Positions 1,763 through 36,348 of a DNA stretch of 64,000 nt are shown here, one piece after another (position 1 is the first letter of the stretch; each line of letters begins with the position of its first letter). The notes below the pieces were generated by a model. The model was given only the letters and a program-made list of their open reading frames with translations, did not search any database and was not told the origin of the DNA. Source of the DNA: Mesostigma viride (Eukaryota > Streptophyta > Mesostigmatophyceae > Mesostigmatales > Mesostigmataceae); contig RPFO01001837.1 of assembly GCA_009746045.1 (NCBI GenBank), positions 31,001 to 95,000 of the forward strand, read 5' to 3'. Both the position numbers and the translations under genes were made by a program.

Positions 1763-2325
1763 CTTGAGCCTGCACACATCCCTGAACCCTGGAGGGTGCC
1801 CCCAGGGGTGTGTAACGTAGCTGCTAGTGACGGCAGTGAGGGGCAGCCCCATGCTCTAGTGATAGAGCCTATTGGACACGATGGGGCAAGCTTGGTTACC
1901 ACAGAGAGTATGCCAGCTGTAGCTGCAGTGGTTACTCGCCAACGTGCCCGCCATGGCGGTGCTGAGCCTGAGGTAGGACCTGGTGATGTGGACCCAGGTG
2001 GATCTCAGAAGCATTCTGACCGTGCAGGACTGGCACAGGATGGTCAGGATGAGGATAGGGCTGGAGACAGTCTGACAGGCACGACCCTGGTGCCTCCTGT
2101 ACATAAGGGATCTGTACATACCTTGAGTGCTAATAATGACAATAAAAGGTTTTCTCTCTTGTATGACATTGCCTCAAGGTTGCATACCATGTTTGGCCAT
2201 GCAGCTCAGTCTTTGCAAGTTGCTAGACGGCTGGGAGGAAGTGAGTTGTACTCCATCTGCCAACAGGTTGCTCAAGCTTGCAAGTGCAGGCTAGTTGCTA
2301 GAAAGCCCAAGCAGTCTCATGCCAG
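1763..2325 (+). pseudogene. copia-1 pol, N-terminal part, interrupted by gypsy-like insertion
   Basis: In frame with gag after the UGA. It encodes a roughly 110-residue linker of no recognisable fold and then the integrase N-terminal zinc-binding region (H-x4-H, later an ACKC motif). Coding sequence stops at 2325, where the gypsy-like element begins, and resumes at 13048. A polyprotein cannot be made from this copy. Confidence 0.8.
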
Positions 2326-3465
2326 TGTCACGGACGCGCGCTATATGTCATCCGGGCGCCCACTATGCACAAGACCGGTGACGTGCGCAAGGAATTTGTC
2401 TTCTACGCATTTTCGACAAAGGCTAGTGACCGGGGGGGGACACTAGCACTTGCAGCATAAGAGCGGACGAAAGTGTACGTGCACGCGCGCCGGGCCAGGC
2501 ACAGCTGGGCGCGCAGCACTGACTTGAGCGGACGGCAGCACAAGTGTGCAGCGTCGAGAGGATCATACGCGTGTTAGTGGACAGCTGGAGCTGAAGCTGG
2601 ACTGCTGGACTTCAACAGCGCCGAGGCTATTGACAGGCCAGGTGTCTTTGTGGTGTAGAATAGCGGGTCAACGTTATGAGGACTGGACAGAAAATGGAAA
2701 AGGACAATTTGCGGTGCGGAGCCAGATCGCTGGAATGAATGCGAAATCGCTGGCAGCCCTAAAAAGGGATTTCTTCTAGAAAGGAACGATTAGACGCAAT
2801 GTTTGCTGGGCCACTCACACGCAAGGTGTGAGCGTGCAGATTGTCTGAAGGATATTATGCTTCGACCTTGCTGGACGTGACTCAATGTCGGACATTCCCA
2901 GGGACAGAAATGCCGGAGCCTCTAGGAGATGAGATCGGCAACAGGGTAGCAATTTAGATTTGTCGGGATGCCTTCCTGCTTTTGTTGGCATGTGTGGTAG
3001 AAAGCCAGGACGGCAACTGGAATGCGGTTTCTATTCGCATGGTTCAGGCAGCAAGATAGTTTTGGCATTCCTGGCTGGACTGACAAGTGTGGCGTGTGTC
3101 ATGCGTGTGGCATGACGAATGGTTTGGTTCATAGTCGAAGAGGACTCTCACGCAGCGTGTAGTCTCTTCGAGTCTCTCGTTAGTGGCCTTCGTGTTTCTC
3201 CCTTTCCTTGGGAGCAAGGCCGGTAGCATGTCATGGAGCGCTGCCTAACTGCGGGCTCGTGAGCATGGAGTGCATCGATATTGAGACTATCAACGTGTTG
3301 TAATTGTATTAACTTTCTCAATAAACTCCGCATGTGCGGCTTCATCATCAGACTGTGCAAAGTATGTGTTTTGAAAGCATTATTCTATAGCAGGGGAGGC
3401 AATAAGGTGGTTATCAGGCACGAGGGACAGTTCCTTGTCCTCGGCTGAGAGCCCTCCTTTCTTTA
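2326..3465 (+). repeat. gypsy-like element repeat A1 (promoter-bearing, LTR-like)
   Basis: A1 is 1140 bp, begins TGTCAC and matches A2 almost base for base. If the element self-primes (see 3466-3479), transcription should start near 3159, where the sequence complementary to the primer site lies. The 833 bp upstream would then be the promoter. Poly(A) candidates TGTAA and AATAAA follow the same point in A2. The repeat ends at 3465 without the roughly 133-bp B segment that follows A2. Confidence 0.85.
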
Positions 3466-3489
3466 CTCGAAGAGACTACCCGGTAGTCT
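3466..3489 (+). promoter_or_regulatory. putative self-priming primer-binding site with hairpin
   Basis: Bases 3466-3479 (CTCGAAGAGACTAC) begin at the first base after A1. They are the exact reverse complement of 3159-3172 inside A1. This is the geometry of Tf1-type elements, where the 5' end of the mRNA folds back onto the primer site. No tRNA-type TGG primer site is visible here. Bases 3473-3480 and 3482-3489 also form an 8-bp stem with a one-base loop. The role is inferred. Confidence 0.6.
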
Positions 3490-3733
3490 GCTTCCTTCTG
3501 TTCGAAGCCAAGACGTTGGCTTTAGTGTTTAGCAACCATCAGCAGTACAGGGAACGGCCTGGCTGACAGTTTGTAAAGGAAGTGTCTTGAGACAGATTTT
3601 AAGAAAATAGAACTAGCCAGAATTTGCTGGCTCTTGTCTTTTTCTGGCAGGCTAGTCGAGTCGTTATCCTTGACACCTGTTATAAAGCCTTTGGTTGTTG
3701 CTTCTTCTCAGCGAAACCTAGGCTTGTTGGTTC

Positions 3734-5568
3734 TTGTTTTGCCCATCGGTCAGCTGGTGCATGCCACTGACGCGAGCGCAGACTCGAGCCATGGCAGATG
3801 CAAATAGAGCAGATGCCGACACGTCCGCTCCGGGGTCGAATGGCGGGATTCCTCCCGCCGTACCCGCAGTGGGTGAGAGTCGCGACCAAGAAGCGCCGCT
3901 GAGTATGGTGGCGCTGTTCGCGCAGATGCAAGCGCAGATGCAGCAACAGTCGCAACAGTTGCAGCAGCAATTGGCGCTGCAGATGCGGGAAGTGACCGAC
4001 AGATTGGTGGCCGTAGAGGGTCGTCATCTGCAGTCCACACCATGGGACGGGCAGGCATCGATGCCGGGCCCCAGTGGTGTTGCCGCGGAGCCGAGGGAGC
4101 GGGACCAGCCGCCAACCTCAGGTAATGCGGCGGGAAGGGCTTCGATGGAACCGGGGGTTTTGGCTGGGTCGCTAACCCAACACGACTTGCTTGGTGAGGC
4201 GGATGGTCAGCCACGGGGCGAGTATACGCTGGCGCCCAGGCGCCTGCCTTTCGATCAAGCGCGAGACGGATTGCACGAGGAGAACGGGGCAGGGCTGGCG
4301 CGCGCGATGGACCCACACAGGGTGCACCAGGACGCATGCTGCCAGGCGGGGCCTCAATTCCGTTTGGGCGAGGCGGTGGGGCGCTGACCGGCGGGTCGAC
4401 TGCACGGTGGTCAAGTGTGCCAATCGGGCGCATTCCGCCCATGGAGGACATAACCACGCCGCTGGCTTTCCGAGTACGGGAGGCAGCACGACCAAGCACG
4501 CTGGCGCAGGGACGCGCAGCTCAGCGACCGCCGGAGGATGCCGATGGGGTGCAGTACCCGCAAAGGGTGCGCCTCATACCGGAAGGCGCGAAGATGCCCA
4601 CCCTACCACGGGTGGACATGCGCGAGAAGTTCTCCACAACCGGCAATCTGGCCACGCTGGCGCAGGCCTACAACGCGTACAAGTCATGGATTGATCTGCA
4701 ATACATGACTACGCAAGGCGCTGTAATGCATGAGTTTGTGATGAACAACATGCATTTTTTCTTTCACGGCCTTACGCTGAGGCGAGTGGCTAGGCTGGTG
4801 GAGCAGTGGAGAGAGGTCTCGCTGTACACGCGTCACACGGACGTGTGGTTCGGCTTCGACGGGCGTGGCCAGCCCGACTATGACAACATCATGTATGGTG
4901 TCGACCCTGCCGAGGAACTGTGGGGCCTCCTTCGCCAGGAATACCCGGTGGAGACCATCAAGGCAGAGCGTGAGTGGCGCAGTTTCAAGATAGCCGAGGG
5001 TGAAACCCCGGAGCAATCTTACGAGCGCCTCATGGAGTTCGCCGGCGAAGTGGAGGACTGGTCCGAAAAGCTGGCGTGTCAGAAATGGCTGCAAGCGCTA
5101 GGCTCCAAGGAGATGGAGCTGCCCACGCCGCCCAACGGCCAGCCGTGGCGATTGCGGTCACTGTGCATTGAGGTCAGGGCCATGATGCGACGACACGCGC
5201 AAGGCCGGATCTCGGTAAGCACGGTGGTGGCCGAGCTGCAGGCCAAGGTCGACGCGCTGACCAAGGCCAAGTCGGGTGAGTCGTCTGCCACAAGACAAGC
5301 GCGCCCGCAAGGCGGCCACGGTGCTAGCAGGAACCAAGGGGGGTCTCGCAACGCCTCATCGCATGATGCAACCCAGGGTAACGCCGCTGGCGGCAACAAA
5401 GACGCTGCCGCCCCGACGCGAGCTGGGGGGGCACGTCCTCACAGACGGGTACTAGGACGGATGCGCGCAAATCGGGCTGCTTCCTTTGCGACAAGGATGG
5501 GCACCTTAGTCGCGAGTGTCCAAGCCGCTGCACGAAGCCGCATGGGGCAGACACGAAGTGGCACCTGA
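3734..5568 (+). pseudogene. gypsy-like Gag, frameshifted
   Basis: Coding potential covers 3734-4387 in one frame, 4336-5568 in a second, and then the pol frame. The N-terminal part has a Gln-rich helix (residues about 60-85, QMQQQSQQLQQQ). The middle part (4600-5200) resembles a gypsy capsid, with Trp- and Leu-rich helices and the segment WLQALGSKEME. The zinc knuckle CFLCDKDGHLSREC is near 5480-5525 but lies in the pol frame, not in the frame of the capsid part. The second shift therefore falls in the run of Gs near 5426-5433. Either this copy carries indels (or there is a sequencing error in the homopolymer), or one of the shifts is a programmed frameshift. Gag would bind RNA and form the particle. 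Confidence 0.65.
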
Positions 5569-8500
5569 TGAACAAGTGTCCAGCCGCGGGCATCAAGACG
5601 GTCCACTTCGCCGAGATGGCGGGCAAGACCGACTCGATGGAAGCCCAGGTGGCTGCCATCAAGCATGGTGAGGAGGCGACGGCGCCCCCCAACCAATTCG
5701 AGACGGTGTACCGGGAGGACCCATTCTGGGCGCCCATGCCGGGTGACGTCGAGATCAACGCTGCGGAGGCTACCAAAGGCAAGCAGGCACGCAGCCCGCT
5801 TTCTTTTCAGCAGGCACCCATGTTGCCTGCCGGGCAGTTGCCCGCGTCCTTTTCCATGCCGCTGGCTGGGGTGCAATCTGCTTTTGAGCATGCGAACCCT
5901 GCTGGGCTGGAGCAGCGTAGGCGATTGGCGCCTGTGTACCCAATGCCGTTCATTGTGGACGTACCCATGTTTTCAGCACGGCAGGTGGTCGACACCTTCG
6001 GGCAGAAGGGGGTTGAGTGGCTGGGGTCGGTTGTGTCCGAGATCCAGTTGTTCGCAGATGGGCATGATGTGCGCACCTTGCGCAATTCTGAGTCCGTCAC
6101 CTACGGGCGCCAGCCGGTAGAAGCCGCAGTGCCCGTGGTGCAAGCGGGAGTGGTCAGCACAAGTAGCCAGCAGCGCACTAGTGCAGTCCCCCAGGTTCCC
6201 ACGGTGGTTCCATACCCCAATGGTGAGCCGTCCATGGCGTTCCAAGCAGTTGGAGCCTGTGGAGATGTATGGAGCGACATGGTGACATGTCCGTTGGTTG
6301 GCGCAGTCAAGCTTGATAGCGGTGCTCAGCCGCTAGTCATCAGCACGGACTTGGCCACCATGCTGAACCTGACCTACGAGAACGGTGGCTTAGTGGAAAG
6401 CCCCGTGTCTGTGTCAGGTTGGCAGGGTCCGGCTAGTAAGCCGTACGCTATGACGGCGGTTAAAGTCAACGTGATTTTCAATCCGTTGCGCGCCTCTAGC
6501 ATGACCACCGTGTCCGCGTATGCGCTGGTGGTCAACAAGTGTGGATATTCCGCACTACTCGGGGTGGATGTCCTTGCTCGCGCCATGGTTCAGGTGGACT
6601 ATAGGGCGGAGGAGGCATCTTACATCCCTGATTGGGATGGGGCTGGCCTGAAGCGGGCCAGCGTGCCGGTCTCATGCTTCAGTTCTTCAGCCGGGGCTGC
6701 ACGCCTCAACCCTTCCGCGGCTGCGGGCGTGGTGGAGGTCAGCATGGTGGAGGTACGGGCGGCGGGCTCATCGGCGTGGGACAAGCATCGGACGGTGCTG
6801 CCCCAGCCAACGGCGAGCATTGCCAAGATGCGCACGCAGTGGTCGCTGGATGCTGTGACGTCCACGCGGCAGCTGGCTATGCGCAAGCGGGTAACTGAAG
6901 CCGTCATCACCATTCCTCAGATGGCCAGCCATGGCCTCACTTTGCTGCAACCGGGTGTCTCGGAGGCCCAAGGTAATTTTTCTGCTGCAATCTTACCGCA
7001 GGCCCCTGATTTTGCCAAGGGTGCGGTAGTGTTGGAACTGTTTGCGGGGATCGGAGGGGGCATTGCAGGCTTTTTGGCCGCAGGCGGCGTGTGCCGTAAA
7101 CTCATCGCGGTAGAGCCATCGCACAAGGCGCGTCAGGTGTACTTCAGTCACTGTGGCGTGTTGTCGCGAGAGTATCCCGCGCAGTTTCCGCCATCAGCAT
7201 GGCGTGACCCGTTTGGGGAATGTCCTCAAGATATCCGAGCCATCGGTGAGGTGCAGGTGCAGCAGTTGTTGCGCAGGCATCATGCCATCGACTTGGTAAT
7301 TGCGGGTTGGGAGTGCCAGGGCCTGAGCCAGGCAGGGCAAGGGCGGGGGCTAGCCGATCCGCGTAGCGCGCTGTTCTGGGAACTGTTGCGTGTGGTGGGA
7401 CTGTTGCAGTCGCGTCAGCCCCATCCGCCTGCGTATCTGTTTGAGAACGTTGTGGCGGGTGACAGCCCACATCAGGCGGTGCGGGAGGACTGGGCTACAA
7501 TCGTGGCACTCCTGGGGGAGCCCATCGTGTGTGACAACGCAGGGCTGGGTGGGCTCACGCATCGTTTGCGTGCCTATTGGACCAACGTGGCGTGTGCGAC
7601 CGATGTGCAGGCGGTCTTGGGGGCCGTAGCAAGGCAGCATCCGAGTGTGTCTGCGGAGGTAGCATTGCCTTCCCACCTAGTCACGCAGAAGGTGGATAGC
7701 GAGGATCGCCCACCGTATGCACGCGTCAACCGGGTCGGGAGCCCCATGTGTGCACTGCCGACCCTGGTCAGTTACCAAGGGTCGACAGCATACCGTGATC
7801 GGGGTAAGGGTCTCGTTTGGGACACTACCACCGGTCTGTTGGTGCAGCCACCCGCAGAATTTCGTGAGGCCAGCATGGGTTTTCATGTCGGGGCCTCGGC
7901 GCTGCCGGGCGTGCTCGAGAGTGAGCGCTGGTCTTTGATAGGCCAGGCTATGTCGGTGTTGCAGGTCGGGTATGTGCTGCTTGCATCGGTTGCCGTGCGC
8001 CAGTCTGGGGGGGCGTCCCCAGCCAATCCGCCTCAGCAGGTTGAGGCGCGCGCAGCCAAACTGAAGCGCCCTGCAGCGACGGGGACTTCATCAGCATGGG
8101 GGTGGCGTCTGCGACAGGTGTGGACTATCATTCTCATGACCGCCCTGCTGACCAGCACCGTGCTGGCCGGCGAGCCCACGCTGCATCGGGTAATACACCG
8201 TGCGGCACGCGAGGCTCCGGCGGTGGGTGTCACACCAGGCGTGGCAGCCTTTTCCTTGTTCCACGACGATGCGGCTAGGGCGCCGCATCTTGAGGCACAT
8301 GCGGTAGCTGTGGGTGATCCCGCGGATACGCACCCCTGGGCTATTGGCGAACACCTTTCTGATGCGCAGCGCTCAGCCATGCTAAAGTGGCTAGGCACTG
8401 CAAGGGGGGCCTTCGCTTTCACAAGTGATGAACTGGGGTGTTTCAATGGTGGGACCATGCGTGTTCCATTGGACACTGACACCCCTTTGTTCCGACGCCA

Positions 8501-11500
8501 GCATCGCCTGAGTCAGGCCGAGTTGGATTTTGTAGCCGAGCAATGCAAGGAGTTAGAGGATGCCGGTATCATCAGGCAATCTTCCTCCAGCTATGCCGCT
8601 GCCGTTGTCGTTGCGCCCAAGAAGGACGCTATCACCGGGGCATGGACGGGTATGCGCATGGCCACCGATCTGCGGTTGCTGAATGCACACACACCCGTGG
8701 ACCGTTACCCCATGCCACGTGTGGATGATGTCCTGGATAAGATATCTCCTCATGTGAAGTTTGTGTCCTCGCTGGACCTGCGTAGCGGCTTTCATCAGAT
8801 CGCAGTTGCGCCGGAGGATCAGCGGAAGCTTGCATTCTGGGGGGGCGGCAATTTGTATGAGTGGGTGCGCATGCCCTTTGGGCACCGCAACGCTAGTGCT
8901 GTTTTCCAACGAGCTATGGACAAAGTGCTTGCAGGTCTTCCTTTCGCCGCTTGTTACATTGATGATGTAATCGTCTTTAGCGCGACATTTGAGGAGCACC
9001 TGGCGCACTTGGAGCAGGTTCGCTTGGCTCTCGAGGAGCATAATATGCGGCTGCACCCTGAGAAGTGCAAGTTCGCCCAGCGGACCCTCTCATTCCTTGG
9101 TCATCAGATTGTGCCGGGTGGCCGGACGCCTGATGCCGCCAAGGTCGAATCCATTGTGCAGGCCGCCGTACCCACGGATGTCTCAGGGGTGCGGGCGTAT
9201 TTGGGTTTGGCTGGCTATTACCGAGGTTACATTGAGAACTTCAGCAGCAAGGTGAAGCCCTTGACCGAGTTACTCAAGAAGGGGTGCGTGTGGGCGTGGG
9301 GTCCCGCACAGCAACGCGCCATCGAGACAATCAAGCAGGAGCTCACGTCGGCCCCGATTCTGCGCGCCCCTGACTATGCTTTGCCGTTTGTGTTATATAC
9401 CGACTGGTCCAAGGTAGGACTGGGTGCGGTCTTGGCGCAAAAGGATGGTGATGGGCGCGAGCACGTTATTGCTTATGCTAGTCGCAGCAACAACCCAGCG
9501 GAGAGCCGGTATTCTTCCTATGAGGGGGAGGCACTGGCTGTGGTGTGGGCCATCAAGCACTTTCGCCCGTATTTAGTTGGGCGCGTGTTTACTCTGGTGA
9601 CAGACCACCAGCCGCTTCAGTGGCTAATGACCAACACCAACCTGACGGGTAAGCTCGCCCGATGGGCCATGATTATCCAGGAGTACCACATGACCATTGT
9701 GCATCGGGCCGGCAAGGACCATGTCAACGCCGATGTGCTATCCCGATACGCCATGCCTACCACTGTTGACCACACTGGAGCCCGGGCCATGGGTGCCGAG
9801 GGCTCGTCGGGTTCTGTGGTCTTTGTGAACGCTGCTGGGTATGCGGCCGACGATGAGGAGGAGGCGTGGTGGCGCAGTGTCGAGTACTCTGTGGCGGACT
9901 TCGGCATCAGCGACGACCCGGTGCGGCCGTCGCCATTCACGCCATCCAAAGCTGTGTGCGCTATGGAAGAGGGTAGGTCTCTGTCCTTTGACATTGATCC
10001 TTCTCTGCAGCAGCTGATCGCTGTGCAGGCTCTCTTAGCGCGTAGCTCTCTTGCTGATTGCTACACCGCTGATATCTGGCTAGATGGTCGAGTTTTGGAG
10101 CAAGTGCAGGGTGCTGTCTTGACTCCTACTCCAGTCGATTGGACTCCTGCTCAGAAGGCGACGGAGTTGAACAGGGTGCAGCACAGGGCTGCAACCTATG
10201 GTTGGGAAGATGGGGTTTTGTACAAGCTGTTGGGCAAGCGTAGGGTGGTCGTCCCACCGCCTGACAAGCGCGTTGCTATAGTGCAGGCGTACCACGAGCG
10301 GTATGGTCACTTGGGTGGCAATCGCACGCTCAGCCTCGTACGGACCAGCTATTGGTGGAATAACATGCGACACACAGTGGCCCAGGTAGTGGCCAGCTGT
10401 GTCCCGTGTGCTCGAACCAAGGCTAACTTTAGCGCAGATCATGGTGCCAAGGAGCTGATGTCGCTTCCCATCAAGGGCTTGTTTTATCGCTGGCACGTCG
10501 ATCTGTGCGGGCCGTTTCAGGAGAGCCCTGACGGCAACCTCTATGTCATGGTATGCGTGGAGAGCTTTAGCAAATGGGTTGAGTTGATCCCCATTGCTGA
10601 CAAGCATGCCGCTACCACAGCGAAGCATTTTGCAGACATCATCACCAGGTTTGGGGCTCCCGCGGAGGTAGTCACGGACCAGGGTGGTGAGTTCAGGGGT
10701 GAGTTCCAGGAGTTGCTGGATGGATGTCTTATTGATCACCGTCGCACTTCTCGGGAGCATCCTCAGGCCAATGGTTTGGCTGAGAGATTGGTGCAGACCG
10801 TCAAGCAGGCGCTGCGCAAGTGGAGCCTGCAGGTGCCGGAGTCGGCCAGGTGGGATCGCGAGTTGGCATGGATTGCCATGGGTTATCGCATGTCTCCCCA
10901 GGAGTCTCTCGCTACCTTCTCCCCGTATTTCCTTCTGTTCGGGCGTAATCCTCTTTTGCCTACGGAGGCACAGGTTGCGCACCCCGAACCCATGGCCTTC
11001 GACAACGCTCAGCAATTTTTGGTTGAGGTGCTGGCCAGGGCAGAGACTTTTAAGAAGGTCATGCCCATCGCGATGAACAACTTGTTCATTGCTCAGCACA
11101 GGGACTCCCTGCGTTACGCTCAGCGCCGGGGGGGCGCATACATGGCTCGCCAGCTGCGGTTTAGGCCAGGGCAGTATGTTTTCCTGCGCACTCAGCTGAA
11201 GCACACTTTGGATGTGGAGGCGGGGCCCACCATTTTGCGCATTGTGGCTATCAAACCATCGGGAGTGGCAATTTTGGAGGGCGCCGACGGGAGCCGTACG
11301 ACAGACAACCTCAGCAATCTCAGTCCCTGCTCACTGCCCAATTTGGTCCACGACCTCCAACCGCACACATCTCGCCGAGTCAAGGACGCCCAGTGTCAGG
11401 TTTGTCACCGGGTCGATCAGGCGGAGTCCATGTTATTGTGTGATCAGTGTAACTGTGGTTGGCACATGCAGTGCTTGCAGCCCGTGGTCACCAGCATTCC

Positions 11501-11606
11501 GGAGGGGGATTGGTTTTGTCCAGTGTGCACCGCTGCGCAGTTTACCTCCCGCAGCTTGACTGCGGTCACCGCTGCCCTTGTCTTGGTACGATCGCTGTCT
11601 TCGTGA
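5568..11606 (+). CDS. gypsy-like Pol with embedded C5-methyltransferase and PHD finger
   Basis: One 2012-codon open frame. An aspartic protease has LDSGA with Asp250 and a later LLGVDVLA. A C5 cytosine methyltransferase spans about 487-800: motif I ELFAGIGGG (about 490-498), motif IV WECQG with Cys583, motif VI ENV (Glu626), a motif VIII-like HRLR, and motif X-like IGQAMSV. Reverse transcriptase has YIDD (1130-1133). RNase H has YTDWS (Asp1279). The integrase has an HHCC region followed by Asp1645, Asp1704 and Glu1739 (35 apart). A C4HC3 PHD finger (1943-1987) ends GDWFCPVC. The reading starts just after the zinc knuckle, so the true start is probably in gag. All catalytic residues I can check are present, except that motif IV has Glu where Pro is usual. 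A hydrophobic stretch (about 852-870) precedes RT. Confidence 0.92.
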   Translation: MNKCPAAGIKTVHFAEMAGKTDSMEAQVAAIKHGEEATAPPNQFETVYREDPFWAPMPGDVEINAAEATKGKQARSPLSFQQAPMLPAGQLPASFSMPLAGVQSAFEHANPAGLEQRRRLAPVYPMPFIVDVPMFSARQVVDTFGQKGVEWLGSVVSEIQLFADGHDVRTLRNSESVTYGRQPVEAAVPVVQAGVVSTSSQQRTSAVPQVPTVVPYPNGEPSMAFQAVGACGDVWSDMVTCPLVGAVKLDSGAQPLVISTDLATMLNLTYENGGLVESPVSVSGWQGPASKPYAMTAVKVNVIFNPLRASSMTTVSAYALVVNKCGYSALLGVDVLARAMVQVDYRAEEASYIPDWDGAGLKRASVPVSCFSSSAGAARLNPSAAAGVVEVSMVEVRAAGSSAWDKHRTVLPQPTASIAKMRTQWSLDAVTSTRQLAMRKRVTEAVITIPQMASHGLTLLQPGVSEAQGNFSAAILPQAPDFAKGAVVLELFAGIGGGIAGFLAAGGVCRKLIAVEPSHKARQVYFSHCGVLSREYPAQFPPSAWRDPFGECPQDIRAIGEVQVQQLLRRHHAIDLVIAGWECQGLSQAGQGRGLADPRSALFWELLRVVGLLQSRQPHPPAYLFENVVAGDSPHQAVREDWATIVALLGEPIVCDNAGLGGLTHRLRAYWTNVACATDVQAVLGAVARQHPSVSAEVALPSHLVTQKVDSEDRPPYARVNRVGSPMCALPTLVSYQGSTAYRDRGKGLVWDTTTGLLVQPPAEFREASMGFHVGASALPGVLESERWSLIGQAMSVLQVGYVLLASVAVRQSGGASPANPPQQVEARAAKLKRPAATGTSSAWGWRLRQVWTIILMTALLTSTVLAGEPTLHRVIHRAAREAPAVGVTPGVAAFSLFHDDAARAPHLEAHAVAVGDPADTHPWAIGEHLSDAQRSAMLKWLGTARGAFAFTSDELGCFNGGTMRVPLDTDTPLFRRQHRLSQAELDFVAEQCKELEDAGIIRQSSSSYAAAVVVAPKKDAITGAWTGMRMATDLRLLNAHTPVDRYPMPRVDDVLDKISPHVKFVSSLDLRSGFHQIAVAPEDQRKLAFWGGGNLYEWVRMPFGHRNASAVFQRAMDKVLAGLPFAACYIDDVIVFSATFEEHLAHLEQVRLALEEHNMRLHPEKCKFAQRTLSFLGHQIVPGGRTPDAAKVESIVQAAVPTDVSGVRAYLGLAGYYRGYIENFSSKVKPLTELLKKGCVWAWGPAQQRAIETIKQELTSAPILRAPDYALPFVLYTDWSKVGLGAVLAQKDGDGREHVIAYASRSNNPAESRYSSYEGEALAVVWAIKHFRPYLVGRVFTLVTDHQPLQWLMTNTNLTGKLARWAMIIQEYHMTIVHRAGKDHVNADVLSRYAMPTTVDHTGARAMGAEGSSGSVVFVNAAGYAADDEEEAWWRSVEYSVADFGISDDPVRPSPFTPSKAVCAMEEGRSLSFDIDPSLQQLIAVQALLARSSLADCYTADIWLDGRVLEQVQGAVLTPTPVDWTPAQKATELNRVQHRAATYGWEDGVLYKLLGKRRVVVPPPDKRVAIVQAYHERYGHLGGNRTLSLVRTSYWWNNMRHTVAQVVASCVPCARTKANFSADHGAKELMSLPIKGLFYRWHVDLCGPFQESPDGNLYVMVCVESFSKWVELIPIADKHAATTAKHFADIITRFGAPAEVVTDQGGEFRGEFQELLDGCLIDHRRTSREHPQANGLAERLVQTVKQALRKWSLQVPESARWDRELAWIAMGYRMSPQESLATFSPYFLLFGRNPLLPTEAQVAHPEPMAFDNAQQFLVEVLARAETFKKVMPIAMNNLFIAQHRDSLRYAQRRGGAYMARQLRFRPGQYVFLRTQLKHTLDVEAGPTILRIVAIKPSGVAILEGADGSRTTDNLSNLSPCSLPNLVHDLQPHTSRRVKDAQCQVCHRVDQAESMLLCDQCNCGWHMQCLQPVVTSIPEGDWFCPVCTAAQFTSRSLTAVTAALVLVRSLSS

Positions 11607-11621
11607 TGGGGCCGGTCGCCA

Positions 11622-11633
11622 GCGAGGGGGGGA
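11622..11633 (+). promoter_or_regulatory. polypurine tract of the gypsy-like element
   Basis: An all-purine run, GCGAGGGGGGGAA apart from its second base, lies 16 bases after the pol stop and directly abuts B1. Polypurine tracts prime plus-strand DNA at the upstream edge of a 3' LTR. Its position implies that the LTR made by reverse transcription starts at B1, not at A2. Confidence 0.65.
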
Positions 11634-11775
11634 ATCATGGGACAGGTCCTCGCCCACCCCACAGGGCATGCAGTTAAGGCAGGCACATCAGCTCAGCTCA
11701 TTTGGGTTTTACCAAATTAAGCTGAGTGGCCAGCCGCCATGGTGGCGCCGGAGATTGTGGCACGCAGACGCGACA
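11634..11775 (+). repeat. gypsy-like element repeat B1
   Basis: This 142-bp segment starts ATCATGGGACAGG and ends GCGACA. It recurs as B2 (12915-13047) with one 9-bp difference. It lies between the polypurine tract and A2 and joins A2 through the 10-bp palindrome GACAGCTGTC (11772-11781). There is no copy next to A1. Confidence 0.85.
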
Positions 11776-11777
11776 GC

Positions 11778-12914
11778 TGTCACGGACGCGCGCTATGTCA
11801 TCCGGGCGCCCACTATGCACAAGACCGGTGACGTGCGCAAGGAATTTGTCTTCTACGCATTTTCGACAAAGGCTAGTGACCGGGGGGGACACTAGCACTT
11901 GCAGCATAAGAGCGGACGAAAGTGTACGTGCACGCGCGCCGGGCCAGGCACAGCTGGGCGCGCAGCACTGACTTGAGCGGACGGCAGCACAAGTGTGCAG
12001 CGTCGAGAGGATCATACGCGTGTTAGTGGACAGCTGGAGCTGAAGCTGGACTGCTGGACTTCAACAGCGCCGAGGCTATTGACAGGCCAGGTGTCTTTGT
12101 GGTGTAGAATAGCGGGTCAACGTTATGAGGACTGGACAGAAAATGGAAAAGGACAATTTGCGGTGCGGAGCCAGATCGCTGGAATGAATGCGAAATCGCT
12201 GGCAGCCCTAAAAAGGGATTTCTTCTAGAAAGGAACGATTAGACGCAATGTTTGCTGGGCCACTCACACGCAAGGTGTGAGCGTGCAGATTGTCTGAAGG
12301 ATATTATGCTTCGACCTTGCTGGACGTGACTCAATGTCGGACATTCCCAGGGACAGAAATGCCGGAGCCTCTAGGAGATGAGATCGGCAACAGGGTAGCA
12401 ATTTAGATTTGTCGGGATGCCTTCCTGCTTTTGTTGGCATGTGTGGTAGAAAGCCAGGACGGCAACTGGAATGCGGTTTCTATTCGCATGGTTCAGGCAG
12501 CAAGATAGTTTTGGCATTCCTGGCTGGACTGACAAGTGTGGCGTGTGTCATGCGTGTGGCATGACGAATGGTTTGGTTCATAGTCGAAGAGGACTCTCAC
12601 GCAGCGTGTAGTCTCTTCGAGTCTCTCGTTAGTGGCCTTCGTGTTTCTCCCTTTCCTTGGGAGCAAGGCCGGTAGCATGTCATGGAGCGCTGCCTAACTG
12701 CGGGCTCGTGAGCATGGAGTGCATCGATATTGAGACTATCAACGTGTTGTAATTGTATAAACTTTCTCAATAAACTCCGCATGTGCGGCTTCATCATCAG
12801 ACTGTGCAAAGTATGTGTTTTGAAAGCATTATTCTATAGCAGGGGAGGCAATAAGGTGGTTATCAGGCACGAGGGACAGTTCCTTGTCCTCGGCTGAGAG
12901 CCCTCCTTTCTTTA
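11778..12914 (+). repeat. gypsy-like element repeat A2
   Basis: This 1137-bp repeat is nearly identical to A1. It contains TGTAA at 12748 and AATAAA at 12769, plausible poly(A) signals about 140-160 bases past the position matching the predicted transcription start. B1 plus A2 (about 1.28 kb) would be the LTR unit copied by reverse transcriptase. Confidence 0.85.
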
Positions 12915-13047
12915 ATCATGGGACAGGTCCTCGCCCACCCCACAGGGCATGCAGGCACATCAGCTCAGCTCATTTGGGTTTTACCAAATTAAGCTGAGTG
13001 GCCAGCCGCCATGGTGGCGCCGGAGATTGTGGCACGCAGACGCGACA
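12915..13047 (+). repeat. gypsy-like element repeat B2 and right terminus
   Basis: This 133-bp copy of B1 follows A2 directly and ends GACA at the insertion boundary. The CCAG target duplication follows. The A2/B2 join (CTTTA|ATCATGGG) is what end-to-end joining of two B-A LTRs would give. Confidence 0.85.
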
Positions 13048-14477
13048 CCAGGACTCCTATTTTGCAGCCAGGCCATGTGCAGGTAGATATTCAGAGAATC
13101 AGGGGTTTGAAGCTGCTGGTGGCAGTGGACAGATATACCAAGTACAAGACCCTAGAGATCCTGCCTGACATGGAGAAGCCTACATTGATTGCTGCTCTGA
13201 AGTTGACAAGGAGCAGGTACCCTGGGTTGGAGTTGTTGCAGTGTGACATTCAGTTTGAGTGCTGTGAGAACCTGCCAGAGTTTCCAGAGTTGCTGATTAC
13301 ACCCAGGGAGAGCCACGGCCAGCAAGGGGTGGTGGAGAGAGCCATCCAAGAGATCAAGACTGTGCTGCTGGTGGAGAGGATTCCAAGGACGTCATCTGCC
13401 ATTGTGACATCTGCATGGCTACGTTCTGTGGAGGATAGGCTGAACCTCAGGTCTCCCAATGATGTTCTTTGGTGACATTGCCATCAATCCTCTTATGCTG
13501 CATACCAGGATGCTGCCAGCTGATGCTGAGCAGGCATGGAAGGAGAAGCTAGAGGCCAAGTTCCTCAAGCTGAGGCAGAAAGACAAGGGCTGGAGTGTCC
13601 TAGAACATAACGTTGGACAACGGGTTGTTGTGTGGAAGGAACCAAGCTTTCCAGGGAAACGTGGCAGCTGGCATGATGGGGTGGTGACCCGAGTAGAAGC
13701 CGCTGGCCATAAGTGCTGGGTGGCCATTGATGGCTCCCAAGCAGTGCACCGTCTGTCCTGGTCAAAGATCCGTCCCCGGGGAGGTAATCAAGGAGACCTC
13801 TTCCAGGTGCCCGCTGGTGTACAAGGCGGGGGTGACGTGGAGCTTCCTGATCAGGGTGCTACAGCTGTATCGAGCCCTCAGGGTGACCCTGGCCCGGCCC
13901 CTGGGGTACCTTCACATACGGTGGTTGGGCAAGCAGGCGGACAGGCTGCACCTCCGGAACGGCCCGACACCAGGCCTAGGGGTGTGCATCTATCAGATAT
14001 TGTACAGGCTTTGCAAAGAGCCAAGAAGGAGCCTAAGGTGTCCAAGCTTGTCCAGTTGGATGAACCTGAGGTAGCTGCCATGGAGATAGATACCAATGCA
14101 CAGGTTTCTGTCATGGGACCTCAGCATACAGGAGAACTGCTGGTCGGAGAACCAAGTTGCCCCTGGGTGTCTGATTTCAGTGGTAGGACGCATCTAAGGG
14201 TGTTGGGAGAGGTTACTGCCCCTGTCATGGGTGTGGATGTGACCTTCCTTGTCCTAGAGGACTATGATGGCCCTGTGATTTTGGGTCAGAATTTTCTGGG
14301 CAATCCTGGGATTTCTATCAGAGCGACAGCTCTGAAAAGAGATGGCTGGGGGATGATTCCCCTAGAAAATTTCAGGACAACATTTCCAATCAGGTGCAGG
14401 GTCAAGCCGGTCAAGGGTGTAAAATGGGATGAAGGGGAGGTGCCCCCAGCAGCCAGTTTGGTGATTCCTGTGTTGCA
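13048..14477 (+). pseudogene. copia-1 pol, middle part (integrase core to protease-like domain)
   Basis: Continuation of copia-1 pol after the gypsy-like insertion. It encodes the integrase core, an SH3-like tail, and a retropepsin-like domain with IDTNA and VILGQNFL. Compared with copia-2 it has a 4-base insertion near 13460 that breaks the frame (open stretches 13011-13475 and 13459-14502). Copia-1 pol therefore carries a frame break in addition to the two insertions. It stops at 14477 at the CACTA-like element. Confidence 0.85.
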
Positions 14478-14533
14478 CACTATACTTTTCGTCCGAGGGT
14501 AGTAAAAAGGATCCGAGGCGTAAATTACGAGGT
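14478..14533 (+). repeat. CACTA-like left terminal inverted repeat
   Basis: These 56 bases are exactly the reverse complement of 36293-36348. The similarity ends sharply at both inner edges. Confidence 0.9.
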
Positions 14534-21412: not shown

Positions 21413-22520
21413 CAATGGATGGATGGATGGATGGATGGATGGATGGATGGATGGATGGATGGATGGATGGATGGATGGATGGATGGATGGATGGATGGAT
21501 GGATGGATGGATGGATGGATGGATGGATGGATGGATGGATGGATGGATGGATGGATGGATGGATGGATGGATGGATGGATGGATGGATGGATGGATGGAT
21601 GGATGGATGGATGGATGGATGGATGGATGGATGGATGGATGGATGGATGGATGGATGGATGGATGGATGGATGGATGGATGGATGGATGGATGGATGGAT
21701 GGATGGATGGATGGATGGATGGATGGATGGATGGATGGATGGATGGATGGATGGATGGATGGATGGATGGATGGATGGATGGATGGATGGATGGATGGAT
21801 GGATGGATGGATGGATGGATGGATGGATGGATGGATGGATGGATGGATGGATGGATGGATGGATGGATGGATGGATGGATGGATGGATGGATGGATGGAT
21901 GGATGGATGGATGGATGGATGGATGGATGGATGGATGGATGGATGGATGGATGGATGGATGGATGGATGGATGGATGGATGGATGGATGGATGGATGGAT
22001 GGATGGATGGATGGATGGATGGATGGATGGATGGATGGATGGATGGATGGATGGATGGATGGATGGATGGATGGATGGATGGATGGATGGATGGATGGAT
22101 GGATGGATGGATGGATGGATGGATGGATGGATGGATGGATGGATGGATGGATGGATGGATGGATGGATGGATGGATGGATGGATGGATGGATGGATGGAT
22201 GGATGGATGGATGGATGGATGGATGGATGGATGGATGGATGGATGGATGGATGGATGGATGGATGGATGGATGGATGGATGGATGGATGGATGGATGGAT
22301 GGATGGATGGATGGATGGATGGATGGATGGATGGATGGATGGATGGATGGATGGATGGATGGATGGATGGATGGATGGATGGATGGATGGATGGATGGAT
22401 GGATGGATGGATGGATGGATGGATGGATGGATGGATGGATGGATGGATGGATGGATGGATGGATGGATGGATGGATGGATGGATGGATGGATGGATGGAT
22501 GGATGGATGGATGGATGGAT
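21413..22520. repeat. (ATGG)n tetranucleotide array, about 1.1 kb
   Basis: About 276 uninterrupted copies of GGAT/ATGG. Every forward frame is open (Trp-Met-Asp-Gly), and so is the reverse (Ile-His-Pro-Ser). These are consequences of a 4-base period and are not genes. Confidence 0.98.
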
Positions 22521-22739
22521 GTCAGGCTTGTCTTACATGATGCAGTGGAACTTTGGTGCTGGAGGGTTAATTGTGGCCCGGTCTGGTTTAGCTTCAGTGC
22601 TCTCATGGCGGCCTTCATTTGTAATTATTTGAATGCATGCCCATTGGGCCATGCATAGTGTATATTTTTTACGCATGCACGCCCATTATGTATCGCTGGG
22701 TCCATCCCATCAATGCTTGTTTATTGCCAGGTCTGGTGT

Positions 22740-28776: not shown

Positions 28777-29691
28777 ATGGTGCAGGAGGAACAACGGCAG
28801 CAGGATTTCCGGTTTCGGCAGTCTGCTGGGGGTTCGATTTCTCCTGAATTACGCCGTGTCGTTCGGGATCTATCTTTGTTGCTTGCAGATCGTCCGCCTG
28901 TAAATCGCAGCTTCGTGCAATTCGTCGACGACCAGGTCGAAGATTGGGAGCGAATTCTGCGACACGTACAAACCATCGTCATTCCGGAGCACCGGAGCAT
29001 CGACGACCTTGAGCAGGAGCTTCACGGGTTGGTCGGCATCCAGACGGTGATTACTGCAGTAGCAGAGCGAGTGCGGACGGAGTTGGCAGCAAGGCGAGGC
29101 GAGGTTGCGGAGGCAGCTGGCGCAGGGCGACACGAGTTTGTGCCGACAGTAGCGGGCGCGGGAGTACCACGTGCTTTCGCAGGCGGCATCGGCGACGAGG
29201 GTGTTGCAGCGGGCCAGTTAGGCGTGAACGACGCGGAGCGGAGCATCACAGGCGGCTTGCAGAGGTCGGGGCGACAGCGGAAGCCATCGCCGGAGGACAC
29301 GCGCGACAAGAGTCGGCAGGTTTCCAGAGCGAGTAAGAGTTCCTTTTCAGGAGCTGCCCCGCCCCTTCGCGTTCGTGTGACGCGTTGGGAGGAGTTTGCA
29401 CCTCTTGGGTACGATAGTGACCTTGAGGTAGGGCAGGGGGTGTCGCTGGGCTAGGCGACGAGACACTTGGCGACCACGAGGTGCCAACGTACAATCCGCG
29501 AGGGCCAACGACGGGTTGTCACCTGTCTACTTTACCAACGGTGACGATTCAGTCATCGCGGGCCGACAGCGGGTCGACGACGGCGCAGCAGGTAGCAGGG
29601 TACCAGAGCTGATTGTGGTGAGCGACAGCGACGACGACAGCGACAAGGAGAACCAGGACGCGCCTGGGGCCAGCCGTGGTGGTCTTGCCTG
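28777..29691 (+). pseudogene. copia-2 leader ORF (ORF0), frameshifted
   Basis: Open for 225 codons to 29454, from an ATG 93 bases after the LTR. A one-base deletion relative to copia-1 (near 29430) then shifts the frame. In the original frame it would run to 29691, about 100 bases before gag. The N-terminal half is helical and acidic, the middle is Gly/Ala-rich, and the end is an SDS/KEN acidic tail. I recognise no domain. Its presence before gag in both copies means it is part of the element. Confidence 0.6.
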
Positions 29692-29794
29692 AGTGGTAAC
29701 ACTTGGCACTTTCTTTTCTTGTTCAGTAGCTTATATTGCTTTAATTGCTGCTTGGCCACTTGGCTGGCTGTAGCAGATCTGAACAGAGGCCATC

Positions 29795-30963
29795 ATGGAG
29801 GATGGAGCTATCAACCAACCAGCGGGCTTTATGGACTTCGGGCGGCGCGGCGCTGGGCTGGATGGACGAGATGGACGCTATGGACGCGGGGGCGGCCAGG
29901 CGCTGGGAGACCAGGCTGAGGTGCCAGATAATCAGAGCCAAGGATCGCAGGGCGGGCAGCACGCGCCAGCCGCAGATCAAGCGGCGCCCAAGCGACCAAC
30001 TGTTGCTGAGGGGTACGCGGTGCTAGGCCAGTTTCAGTCCATCAAGGACAATTGGCAGCCCCGGGATGCTGAGAGGATGTTAGAGGACATGAACTTGTAC
30101 ACGGAGATATACAACGGTGACAAGCTTCGCATCCTGGCGTCTAGTGCCTACATACGGCAGTCGGCGAGGCGGCTGTTCAAGTTTGTTCGGGAGCGACACG
30201 CGGCGGGGGACACCTGGACGGCGTTTATGACGCGACTCAGGTCGTTCCTGAGTGACAAGAGGACCATAGATGGGACCCACCTGAAACAAGAATACCTGGA
30301 CTACAAGCCCATCAAGGGGCAACTAGTGGTCCACGCCTTTGAAGACTTCGTCAAGCTGAGGGAGGACGCCATGGCCAAGGGCTTCTTCGTCGCAGATCGG
30401 ATGGCCATGGGCGACTTTCTCAAGTCGCTGCAACTGGATCCGGTCACCATGGATAATGTGACCATCCACATGCGACAGGTCCATGGCTGGGCAGCCATGA
30501 CGGATCAGTTGTATGAGTGTTTCAGCGGCAAGTACGTGGGGGTAAGCGCCCTCGTCAGAATGATGAGGAGGCCACTGAACCCACGGTTAAGTCCATGAGG
30601 GGATCGGGCCACGGGGGCCCAGCGTCCTCGAGAGGGCCTGAGACCTCTTCAAGGGGTCGAGGAAGGTCCAGGAGGGGGCGTGACAGAAGGGCTGGACGGG
30701 GGACCCCGCCGAAGTCGGGACATCCACAGTCCCAGTTTGACTTCAAGAGGGTGGGTGGTCCTCCCAAGGCTGGGCCCAGCAGTGGGACCTCACGGGACAT
30801 CAGTCAGGTGGAATGTTATTTCTGCCAGGGGAAGGGTCACTTCAGGAATGAGTGTCCCTCGTACCTGAGGCAGGAAGGTCAGAGCAAGCCAGCTCAGGGT
30901 GGCAGCAAGGACAAGGCTGGTCCATCCCAGGACAAGGGCAAGGGCAAGGCTGCTGATCATTGA
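29795..30963 (+). pseudogene. copia-2 Gag, frameshifted
   Basis: Homologous to copia-1 gag (572-1762). It is open 29795-30598 and 30517-30963. The break is a lost base in the GTGGGGG run at about 30537-30542, where copia-1 reads GTGGGTGG. The zinc knuckle CYFCQGKGHFRNEC is in the second part. The protein is broken between capsid and nucleocapsid in this copy. Confidence 0.85.
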
Positions 30964-33900
30964 TTGAGCCTGCACACATCCCTGAACCCTGGAGGGTGCC
31001 CCCAGGGGTGTGTAATGAAGCTGCTAGTGACAGCAGTGAGGGGCAGCCCCATGCTCTAGTGAAAGAGCCTATTGGACACGATGGGGCAAGCTTGGTTACC
31101 ACAGAGAGTATGCCAGCTGTAGCTGCAGTGGTTACTCGCCAACGTGCCCGCCATGGCGGTGCTGAGCCTGAGGTAGGACCTGGTGATGTGGACCCAGGTG
31201 GATCTCAGAAGCATTCTGACCGTGCAGGACTGGCACAGGATGGTCAGGATGAGGATAGGGCTGGAGACAGTCTGACAGGCACGACCCTGGTGCCTCCTGT
31301 ACATAAGGGATCTGTACATACCTTGAGTGCTAATAATGACAATAAAAGGTTTTCTCTCTTGTATGACATTGCCTCAAGGTTGCATACCATGTTTGGCCAT
31401 GCAGCTCAGTCTTTGCAAGTTGCTAGACGGCTGGGAGGAAGTGAGTTGTACTCCATCTGCCAACAGGTTGCTCAAGCTTGCAAGTGCAGGCTAGTTGCTA
31501 GAAAGCCCAAGCAGTCTCATGCCAGGACTCCTATTTTGCAGCCAGGCCATGTGCAGGTAGATATTCAGAGAATCAGGGGTTTGAAGCTGCTGGTGGCAGT
31601 GGACAGATATACCAAGTACAAGACCCTAGAGATCCTGCCTGACATGGAGAAGCCTACATTGATTGCTGCTCTGAAGTTGACAAGGAGCAGGTACCCTGGG
31701 TTGGAGTTGTTGCAGTGTGACATTCAGTTTGAGTGCTGTGAGAACCTGCCAGAGTTTCCAGAGTTGCTGATTACACCCAGGGAGAGCCACGGCCAGCAAG
31801 GGGTGGTGGAGAGAGCCATCCAAGAGATCAAGACTGTGCTGCTGGTGGAGAGGATTCCAAGGACGTCATCTGCCATTGTGACATCTGCATGGCTACGTTC
31901 TGTGGAGGACAGGCTGAACCTGAGGACTCCCATGTTCTTTGGTGACATTGCCATCAATCCTCTTATGCTGCATACCAGGATGCTGCCAGCTGATGCTGAG
32001 CAGGCATGGAAGGAGAAGCTAGAGGCCAAGTTCCTCAAGCTGAGGCAGAAAGACAAGGGCTGGAGTGTCCTAGAACCTAACGTTGGACAACAGGTTGTTG
32101 TGTGGAAGGAACCAAGCTTTCCAGGGAAACGTGGCAGCTGGCATGATGGGGTGGTGACCCGAGTAGAAGCCGCTGGCCATAAGTGCTGGGTGGCCATTGA
32201 TGGCTCCCAAGCAGTGCACCGTCTGTCCTGGTCAAAGATCCGTCCCCGGGGAGGTAATCAAGGAGACCTCTTCCAGGTGCCCGCTGGTGTACAAGGCGGG
32301 GGTGACGTGGAGCTTCCTGATCAGGGTGCTACAGCTGTATCGAGCCCTCAGGGTGACCCTGGCCCGGCCCCTGGGGTACCTTCACATACGGTGGTTGGGC
32401 AAGCAGGCGGACAGGCTGCACCTCCGGAACGGCCCGACACCAGGCCTAGGGGTGTGCGTCTATCAGATATTGTACAGGCTTTGCAAAGAGCCAAGAAGGA
32501 GCCTAAGGTGTCCAAGCTTGTCCAGTTGGATGAACCTGAGGTAGCTGCCATGGAGATAGATACCAATGCACAGGTTTCTGTCATGGGACCTCAGCATACA
32601 GGAGAACTGCTGGTCGGAGAACCAAGTTGCCCCTGGGTGTCTGATTTCAGTGGTAGGACGCATCTAAGGGTGTTGGGAGAGGTTACTGCCCCTGTCATGG
32701 GTGTGGATGTGACCTTCCTTGTCCTAGAGGACTATGATGGCCCTGTGATTTTGGGTCAGAATTTTCTGGGCAATCCTGGGATTTCTATCAGAGCTACAGC
32801 TCTGAGAAGAGATGGCTGGGGGATGATTCCCCTAGAAAATTTCAGGACAACATTTCCAGTCAGGTGCAGGGCCAAGCCGGTCAAGGGTGTAAAATGGGAT
32901 GAAGGGGAGGTGCCCCCAGCGGCCAGTTTGGTGATTCCAGCTGTGTTGCACCCCAGCAGTATTGGCATAACTCACAGGAGCCTTGCTGCACACTCTCCTT
33001 TGACATATGACCAGCTGGTCCAAGAGATGAGCTCGCCTACTTTGTTTGAGGCTTGGAAGCTCGCCTTCTCCAAGGCATTGGAGGAGTGGTTGCAGTTTGA
33101 GTGTGCTGCACCAACAGACAGACGTCCCCCAGCATCAAGGAAGCTTGCTTTGAGATTTGTGCTGAAGAGGAAGGTTGTGGATGAGGTATCAGTGCCCCAT
33201 GTCAGGCCTGTCCTGAATGAGTATCACGGCACGGGGAGTCTGCCAGGAGAGGAGCTATACACGCCAGGGATGCTACACGACACATGGAGAATTTTGCTAT
33301 GTCTCTACGTGGGGTTGCTGAACAGGGGAGCAGCTATGTCATCAGTGCTGCTGGACTTCAAGAGGGCATTTTTAAAATCTGATCCAGAAGTGGCCAGGAG
33401 GGTGTGGAAGCAGGATGAGCCTTACTGTGTTGAGGTGCCTGCCATCTGGAAGCTGGAGCTGCATCAACAATTCCTGGTTATTCTGAAGGGCCTGGAAGGA
33501 CTCAGGTCGAGCCCAATCATCTGGAGACTCACGCTGCAGGAAGCTCTGATCAGTGAGTGTGGCTTGAGAGTGTCTTCAGTTGATCCCTGTTTGCTGCTGG
33601 CCCAATGGGAGGGTCTGCCAGTGTATGCTAGTTTGCATGGAGATGATCTGCATTTGCTAGCCCCCACGACCTGGCTGAAGAAGTTTATTCCTGTCATCAG
33701 TGGCAAGTTTTCACTGGGCAAGGAGCTGTGGCAGGAGCCCAACAAGCCTGTAGTGTTCTGTGGAATGCAGGCTACCCTGTTCAGGAGGGACGGGGAGTGG
33801 AGTATCAGGCTTCAGGCTGGAGGAGATTATAAACAGACCATTGTGAAGGCCTTGCCAGAGAAGATCACCCAGGCTGCAGGACCTGAGTTGAGAGGCATGT

Positions 33901-34553
33901 GGGCCTGGTTTGCCAGCATCTGTGGTCCGTCTTTGATGGTCCATAGCAGAATGCCTGATGAGGTGCTTGAGGATGAGAAGCCTCGAGTCATAGCCCGGTT
34001 GGTGGAGAGTACCCCTGATCTGATTTTGTCTGGGATTGACTTTACCCAGCCTATCACCTTGGAGATCTTTGTTGACAGTTCCATGGATGCTCGCCAGGTT
34101 ACCAAGGTCAGGGGGAGATCTGCTGCTCTGTTTGCTTTTTATCAGAGCAGGGCAAGTTTGTTCAGCTGGTACAGCAGACTGCAGAAGAGGGTCTGTATCA
34201 GTTCAGATGTGGCAGAATGCAGGGCCATATGCGAGGGGATCCAGTCCAGCCTGTACATAAAGGAGTTAATGCTGGAGCTGGCTTCAGTTACCCCTTGGAC
34301 CTTGCAGATGGAGACGTTGTTGCTAACAGACAGCATGGGTATGGTCCAGTTTGTTCACAAGCAGCTGGCCAGGAGCCGGGACCTGGATTATTTGTTGCTG
34401 AAGGAGTTGGCCAGTTTGGTTGACTTGAAGCATATCCCTGGCGAGGAGAACCCTGCTGATGCATTGACAAAGCTGCCACACAAGGCCCCAGCCCAGTACA
34501 ATGTACTGAGGAAGCTCATGAATGCTGACTGTCAAGTCGGTCTATCTGTCTAA
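30960..34553 (+). CDS. copia-2 Pol: integrase, protease-like domain, RT, RNase H
   Basis: 1197 codons open, without an ATG at the 5' edge; expression would need gag fusion. After a linker, an integrase has a zinc-binding region and the triad Asp201, Asp254, Glu284; the last spacing (30) is shorter than the usual 35. Next come an SH3-like tail and a retropepsin-like domain with IDTNA (Asp534; the usual Gly is Asn) and VILGQNFL. The reverse transcriptase has LLDFKRAF and HGDD (Asp895/896, in place of YVDD). RNase H starts near Asp1039 and ends with the copia hallmark NPADALTK. Integrase before RT marks the copia group. The protease-like domain after integrase is out of the usual order. Confidence 0.9.
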   Translation: MIEPAHIPEPWRVPPGVCNEAASDSSEGQPHALVKEPIGHDGASLVTTESMPAVAAVVTRQRARHGGAEPEVGPGDVDPGGSQKHSDRAGLAQDGQDEDRAGDSLTGTTLVPPVHKGSVHTLSANNDNKRFSLLYDIASRLHTMFGHAAQSLQVARRLGGSELYSICQQVAQACKCRLVARKPKQSHARTPILQPGHVQVDIQRIRGLKLLVAVDRYTKYKTLEILPDMEKPTLIAALKLTRSRYPGLELLQCDIQFECCENLPEFPELLITPRESHGQQGVVERAIQEIKTVLLVERIPRTSSAIVTSAWLRSVEDRLNLRTPMFFGDIAINPLMLHTRMLPADAEQAWKEKLEAKFLKLRQKDKGWSVLEPNVGQQVVVWKEPSFPGKRGSWHDGVVTRVEAAGHKCWVAIDGSQAVHRLSWSKIRPRGGNQGDLFQVPAGVQGGGDVELPDQGATAVSSPQGDPGPAPGVPSHTVVGQAGGQAAPPERPDTRPRGVRLSDIVQALQRAKKEPKVSKLVQLDEPEVAAMEIDTNAQVSVMGPQHTGELLVGEPSCPWVSDFSGRTHLRVLGEVTAPVMGVDVTFLVLEDYDGPVILGQNFLGNPGISIRATALRRDGWGMIPLENFRTTFPVRCRAKPVKGVKWDEGEVPPAASLVIPAVLHPSSIGITHRSLAAHSPLTYDQLVQEMSSPTLFEAWKLAFSKALEEWLQFECAAPTDRRPPASRKLALRFVLKRKVVDEVSVPHVRPVLNEYHGTGSLPGEELYTPGMLHDTWRILLCLYVGLLNRGAAMSSVLLDFKRAFLKSDPEVARRVWKQDEPYCVEVPAIWKLELHQQFLVILKGLEGLRSSPIIWRLTLQEALISECGLRVSSVDPCLLLAQWEGLPVYASLHGDDLHLLAPTTWLKKFIPVISGKFSLGKELWQEPNKPVVFCGMQATLFRRDGEWSIRLQAGGDYKQTIVKALPEKITQAAGPELRGMWAWFASICGPSLMVHSRMPDEVLEDEKPRVIARLVESTPDLILSGIDFTQPITLEIFVDSSMDARQVTKVRGRSAALFAFYQSRASLFSWYSRLQKRVCISSDVAECRAICEGIQSSLYIKELMLELASVTPWTLQMETLLLTDSMGMVQFVHKQLARSRDLDYLLLKELASLVDLKHIPGEENPADALTKLPHKAPAQYNVLRKLMNADCQVGLSV

Positions 34554-35996: not shown

Positions 35997-36001
35997 CCCA
36001 C

Positions 36002-36292
36002 TTCTCCATTACAATATAATTATCCATCTGGCCGTGTACAGGCAAAGATCCCCGAAGTAACTTACTGAAACGTATCTTACAGCATCGGATCACTGGCACC
36101 TAATCTACAGGTGGTAGATTACCAACCAAGACCCGTCGCGGTAATTTACTCTGTCGGTAATTAATGTACTACCAAAGATGTGCAGTCGTAACGTTACTCT
36201 TACTTACGGCTAGTAAAATTACTACGTAGGATGATAGGTAGTAATGATTACGGCGTTGGATCTCACGCCTCGTATCTAGGTAGTAAGATAAG
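36002..36292. repeat. CACTA-like right subterminal region
   Basis: 291 bp between copia-2 and the right inverted repeat, rich in GTAATTTAC, GTAGTAAT and TACTACC motifs in both orientations. No coding sequence. Confidence 0.6.
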
Positions 36293-36348
36293 ACCTCGTA
36301 ATTTACGCCTCGGATCCTTTTTACTACCCTCGGACGAAAAGTATAGTG
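36293..36348 (-). repeat. CACTA-like right terminal inverted repeat
   Basis: Exact reverse complement of 14478-14533, ending TATAGTG. Confidence 0.9.

Follow-up and report, generated by a model that had tools for sequence, protein, structure and literature searches.

A Ty3/Gypsy-type retrotransposon of Mesostigma viride with split direct repeats and a DDE integrase: possible integration through a two-LTR circle

A 64,000-nucleotide stretch of the Mesostigma viride genome (assembly GCA_009746045.1, contig RPFO01001837.1, positions 31,001 to 95,000; hereafter the window, to which all coordinates refer) contains a retrotransposon at positions 2326–13047, inserted within a Copia-like element. Its direct repeats are split in the order A1-internal-B1-GC-A2-B2, an observation confirmed here, and its Pol protein carries an integrase of the D,D,E type. 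We interpret it as a Ty3/Gypsy-type long terminal repeat (LTR) retrotransposon in which the integrase attachment site now lies inside the LTR and in which the integrase opens a two-LTR circle at this site, a reading that is probable, though by no means securely so. The broader proposal is put forward more tentatively, as a serious possibility rather than as our expectation: in this family of DDE-integrase elements the two-LTR circle would be an obligatory integration intermediate, the attachment site would be a pre-formed palindrome inside the LTR, and a single staggered cut would open the circle and process both ends, making the split repeats convergent with those of tyrosine-recombinase elements.

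All four blocks described in the initial annotation are present, with borders refined by about one base (Table 1); a single A can be assigned to either side, which leaves the A/B border uncertain by 1 nt. When A1 (2326–3465) is aligned with A2 (11778–12914), 1136 of 1140 columns are identical, the differences being one substitution, one 2-nt indel and one 1-nt indel. B1 and B2 differ solely by one 9-nt indel (11670–11678). Because of these small differences, the A and B blocks are taken as separate near-identical copies; chance does not explain them, and a duplication introduced by the assembly is unlikely. The 9-nt indel, which is the largest difference between repeat copies and is not mentioned in the initial annotation, has GCAG repeats on its flanks. 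The inserted ends carry a TG...CA pair (start TGTC, end GACA) and are bordered by the 4-bp target duplication noted earlier, here CCAG. As also annotated, the empty site is preserved in a second Copia copy, which holds a single CCAG and matches the flanks of the element at 95.8% on the left (1–2325) and 98.7% on the right (13048–14478). At 29228–38010 lie this second copy and a further Copia-like coding stretch (36292–38010), which is a close repeat of the end of the open reading frame (ORF) at 30957–34553. Further copies of A, B or the internal region were not found in the window.

Table 1. Positions of the element's features and of its target site in the window.
Feature	Position	Strand	Remark
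Target duplication CCAG, left copy	2322..2325	.	
A1, left terminal repeat	2326..3464	+	begins TGTCACGG
Predicted RNA 5′ end as self-primer, GTAGTCTCTTCGAGT	3159..3173	+	start inferred by analogy with Tf1
Primer binding site ACTCGAAGAGACTAC	3465..3479	+	exact reverse complement of 3159–3173
Gag-like region, two overlapping frames	3722..5568 (3722–4387, 4198–5568)	+	gag by position only
pol ORF, 2074 aa stop to stop	5382..11606	+	zinc-knuckle-like motif, methylase, reverse transcriptase, RNase H, integrase, PHD
C-5 cytosine DNA methylase match	7029..7451	+	Pol residues 550–690, profile positions 3–111 of 324 (partial)
Integrase	10254..10763	+	H2C2 zinc-binding residues 1625–1681, core 1702–1794
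PHD finger	11394..11528	+	Pol residues 2005–2049, Pol C-terminus
Purine tract GAGGGGGGG, predicted polypurine tract	11624..11632	+	adjoins B1
B1	11633..11775	+	3′ end CGCGACA
Palindrome GACAGCTGTC, proposed integrase cleavage site	11772..11781	.	B1-A2 join
GC dinucleotide separating B1 and A2	11776..11777	.	not present at outer ends
A2	11778..12913	+	
B2	12914..13047	+	3′ end CGCGACA
Target duplication CCAG, right copy	13048..13051	.	
Unoccupied target site, single CCAG, second Copia copy	31522..31525	.	

The primer site had been placed next to A1, which holds true, but the primer looks internal rather than a transfer RNA (tRNA), as judged from the 15-nt complementarity between the start of the internal region and A1; we therefore describe it as an apparent self-primer of the Tf1 type. 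The same 15 nt recur in A2 at 12608–12622. As a control, each position from 3465 to 13039 was taken as a border and the preceding 1139 nt as the repeat. Among these 9,575 borders, 15-nt self-complementarity is reached at the true border only; its four nested neighbours reach 14 to 11, and the best unrelated borders reach 12 (5602, 6739). When the RNA from 3159 to 3620 is folded, the first 12 of the 15 bases are paired with a probability of 0.97–0.98 and the last three with 0.94, 0.60 and 0.47. A tRNA primer was considered and rejected on the grounds that no TGG occurs within the first 6 nt after A1, a decision made without comparing tRNAs one by one. ARAGORN found no tRNA genes in the window.

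Since the primer site is flush with A1 and GAGGGGGGG is flush with B1, the LTR order in the complementary DNA (cDNA) is predicted to be B-GC-A, in line with the B-A order given in the initial annotation, and A1 is predicted to comprise part of U3 together with R and U5. An LTR of the order A-B was rejected: it is A1 that borders the primer site and B1 that borders the purine tract, and no A-B unit does so. At the A2/B2 join, CTTTCTTT is followed immediately by AATCATGG, i.e., the predicted end of U5 directly meets the predicted start of U3 with nothing gained or lost. The TG...CA pair is not found at the predicted outer ends of the cDNA. Within B1-GC-A2, by comparison, the real insertion ends face each other across the GC and form the 10-bp palindrome GACA-GC-TGTC. 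GACANNTGTC occurs once in the window, at GACAGCTGTC. Exact palindromic arms of at least 5 were found at 8 of 10,662 centres in the element, and at 5 of the 10,662, the GACAGCTGTC site among them, 13 or more of the 20 arm positions match; a second symmetric site was not found within the element. The palindromic CA-GC-TG site could be an integrase substrate. Like the self-priming and the exact A2/B2 join, this site is an addition to the initial annotation.

The enzymatic content of Pol agrees with that annotation as regards the integrase. Its D,D,E residues, 1707, 1766 and 1801 by the usual motif, are spaced by 58 and 34 residues, and the E lies just past the end of the Pfam match. In a sequence comparison with solved structures (11 distinct sequences at E 0.001), foamy-virus integrase was the best match (E 2.8e-19), followed by Ty3 (1.8e-16). 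Reverse transcriptase and RNase H lie upstream of the DDE integrase, as in Ty3/Gypsy elements when domain order, without a tree, is the measure. The complete direct flanking LTRs of that group are not seen, the left end having A alone and the right end B-GC-A-B. We have therefore filed the element as an atypical member, related to Ty3/Gypsy by its domains and mode of working. No Pfam match to a tyrosine recombinase was obtained in the ORFs scanned, Pol included. Nine further ORF scans on both strands (one repeating the gag ORF at 4198) were without a Pfam match at E values up to 0.1, some small ORFs lying outside the scan.

The cytosine-C5 methylase domain sits between the protease-like and reverse transcriptase regions of Pol. 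Its best solved match is weak (a plant-type DRM-like methyltransferase, E 5.3e-05), and the bacterial enzymes HaeIII and HhaI score close behind. The structure 4onj is a plant DRM; 7l4h, named DRM2, is also among the matches. By position, the motifs follow the unrearranged order ELFAG, ECQ, ENV, and a second piece aligned to the DRM chain has a negative score and provides no evidence. Upstream, the gag-like region has no Pfam match. pol lies in a third frame relative to the two gag-like frames, each successive frame being shifted by −1, which points to either programmed frameshifting or damage.

In the proposed cycle, the RNA would start in the R of A1 and end in the R of A2, with reverse transcription primed by its own folded-back 5′ end and the plus strand primed at the purine tract beside B1. 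The resulting linear cDNA would be (B-GC-A)-internal-(B-GC-A), and joining of its outer ends would give a two-LTR circle with an A/B join. The integrase would then cut the GACA-GC-TGTC palindrome of the LTR upstream of the internal region, so that each of the two ends is recessed to CA-3′OH and bears a 2-nt 5′ GC overhang. On strand transfer the target would be duplicated over 4 bp and the GC lost, producing A-internal-B-GC-A-B, which would again hold everything needed for the next RNA. The derivation of the layout from a two-LTR circle, already suggested in the initial annotation, is supported by symbolic bookkeeping, carried out by labels only for four routes (a two-LTR circle cut in either LTR, a cut one-LTR circle and a doubly cut linear molecule). 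A form capable of giving the full RNA is regained by one route alone, in which the two-LTR circle is opened in the LTR upstream of the internal region, and this is the observed form; the remaining routes yield AB-A-internal-B or A-internal-B.

Several points weigh against this cycle. It is drawn from the sequence of one copy, and that copy may be damaged, given a gag spread over two frames. The purine tract on its own is weak, as another 9-nt purine run occurs at 11501–11509, and the leader fold was begun at the assumed RNA start and has no shuffled control. The outer ends pair imperfectly inside TGTC. The cycle would also be wasteful, with half or more of the events lost, because the other circle cut and the linear and one-LTR routes would lead to dead forms. 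Further, according to PMC1905944, HIV-1 integrase acting on its own junction mostly leaves four-base overhangs, and two-LTR circles, formed by end joining, are a dead end.

Whether the layout reflects a distinct replication cycle or a one-off event had been left undecided. If the family were normally BA-internal-BA and this copy an exceptional circle integration at the LTR palindrome, the single copy seen would be accounted for, as would an arrangement that is one step from a two-LTR circle. On the other hand, the predicted outer BA ends lack TG/CA, whereas the internal site has TGTC/GACA, and similar elements of Klebsormidium nitens are presented as a group having DIRS-type repeats (PMC5890265). 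A one-off is thus unlikely, although it deserves to be kept in mind. Because the K. nitens layout occurs as a described element type, a heritable cycle is favoured over an accident; this is a leaning and not a proof, and we infer the cycle from one copy together with the printed description of the K. nitens elements. A different objection concerns the circle itself: linear cDNAs might be joined head to tail, or a circle might form during reverse transcription, with the internal site cut afterwards and no monomer circle involved. By reasoning only, end-to-end joining of two linear cDNAs also makes the A/B join and the same final form, and the window holds nothing that separates this route from the circle; it requires, however, two molecules or an undescribed step, and we regard it as distinctly unlikely.

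An assembly error, or a rearrangement after insertion of an ordinary element, could be suspected of a layout known from one assembled copy. Such an origin is very improbable, however. A1 can be told from A2 at 4 columns and B1 from B2 by 9 nt; CCAG is duplicated just outside the outer A and B ends; the second Copia copy retains an intact unoccupied site; and the primer site and the purine tract directly adjoin A1 and B1, respectively. The repeat order as in PAT-like, Ngaro and VIPER elements would also suit a PAT/DIRS element with a tyrosine recombinase of its own, or an element mobilized in trans by such an enzyme. This explanation is the hardest of all to credit: the insertion has the 4-bp CCAG duplication, while the DIRS1 model (PMC3266345) gives none, and Pol has reverse transcriptase, RNase H and a DDE integrase, with no tyrosine recombinase in the scanned ORFs.

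Whether two-LTR circles can be true integration precursors is an old question; for retroviruses the general view is that they are dead ends. The present family would be a natural test of circle integration, since its inserted DNA is arranged as it would be if a circle had been opened within the LTR. If integration through the circle is true, split direct repeats could not by themselves be taken to mean a tyrosine recombinase, a point of importance when mobile elements are classified automatically, and programs that look for complete LTRs on both flanks would misread elements of this kind. In addition, the presence of a methyltransferase and a PHD finger on one Pol connects the element with others for which an interplay with host DNA methylation has been suggested.

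Elsewhere in the window, a perfect ATGG tetranucleotide array at 21415–22521 (277 copies, 100% match) is open in several frames. A 9-bp repeat array of about 120 copies at 47914–48960 lies beside an ORF piece which we take to resemble a USP39/SAD1-type ubiquitin-hydrolase-like protein.

Regarding known systems, a DDE enzyme working on abutted ends in a circle is found in the IS3-family insertion sequences (such as IS911), which are bacterial and do without reverse transcription. Tf1/Sushi and Tcn1 retrotransposons have ordinary LTRs. They resemble the Mesostigma element in a primer site complementary to their own RNA and differ in having a chromodomain where a PHD finger was found here; known self-primed elements include Tf1, Tj1 and the plant Tcn1 clade (PMC4600332, PMC6317226). 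According to PMC6317226, self-priming is predicted among plant chromoviruses for the Tcn1 elements of mosses and club mosses and for no other clade, and the algal clade listed there is Chlamyvir; by that account, self-priming in an algal Gypsy element would be out of the ordinary. In vitro, foamy-virus integrase cuts the two-LTR junction 3′ of CA on each strand, which leaves AT as a 5′ overhang (PMC1180852). The likeness lies in the two bases between CA and TG and in one cut yielding both processed ends; the foamy-virus site is the LTR-LTR join, whereas each LTR of the Mesostigma element has its own internal site, some 145 bp away from the purine tract.

Searches of contigs with single-sequence patterns, which reach close relatives only, gave no relatives in prokaryotic genome contigs (full Pol or integrase-PHD part) or viral contigs (full Pol, reverse transcriptase part or the exact 22-nt junction pattern); both results say little. 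The A1-internal-B1A2B2 order itself is that of the tyrosine-recombinase elements PAT, Ngaro and VIPER (PMC4157794, PMC6681497), as the initial annotation had pointed out for the Pat/DIRS type, and Chlamydomonas TOC1 is listed among PAT-type elements in the accessible literature; the present element differs from PAT, Ngaro and VIPER in its DDE integrase and target duplication. The layout had, however, been treated as unreported for a DDE element, which does not hold: the split layout on a Gypsy element has been in print since 2018 (PMC5890265). We found it in this one paper, in literature drawn mostly from outside subscription journals. The paper describes K. nitens Gypsy elements with Dnmt3 in Pol, and its Fig. 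4c legend gives them the repeat structure of DIRS retrotransposons together with Gypsy domains. In the available text, a PHD finger, primer site, duplication or junction is not mentioned for KnitGypsy-Dnmt3, and the authors do not discuss the mode of integration; in the main text ‘phd’ and ‘circular’ do not occur, and ‘circle’ occurs 3 times, not for DNA circles in the two places shown. Compared by printed description only, KnitGypsy-Dnmt3 and the Mesostigma element share the Gypsy domain set, a cytosine methyltransferase in Pol and DIRS-type A-internal-B-A-B repeats.

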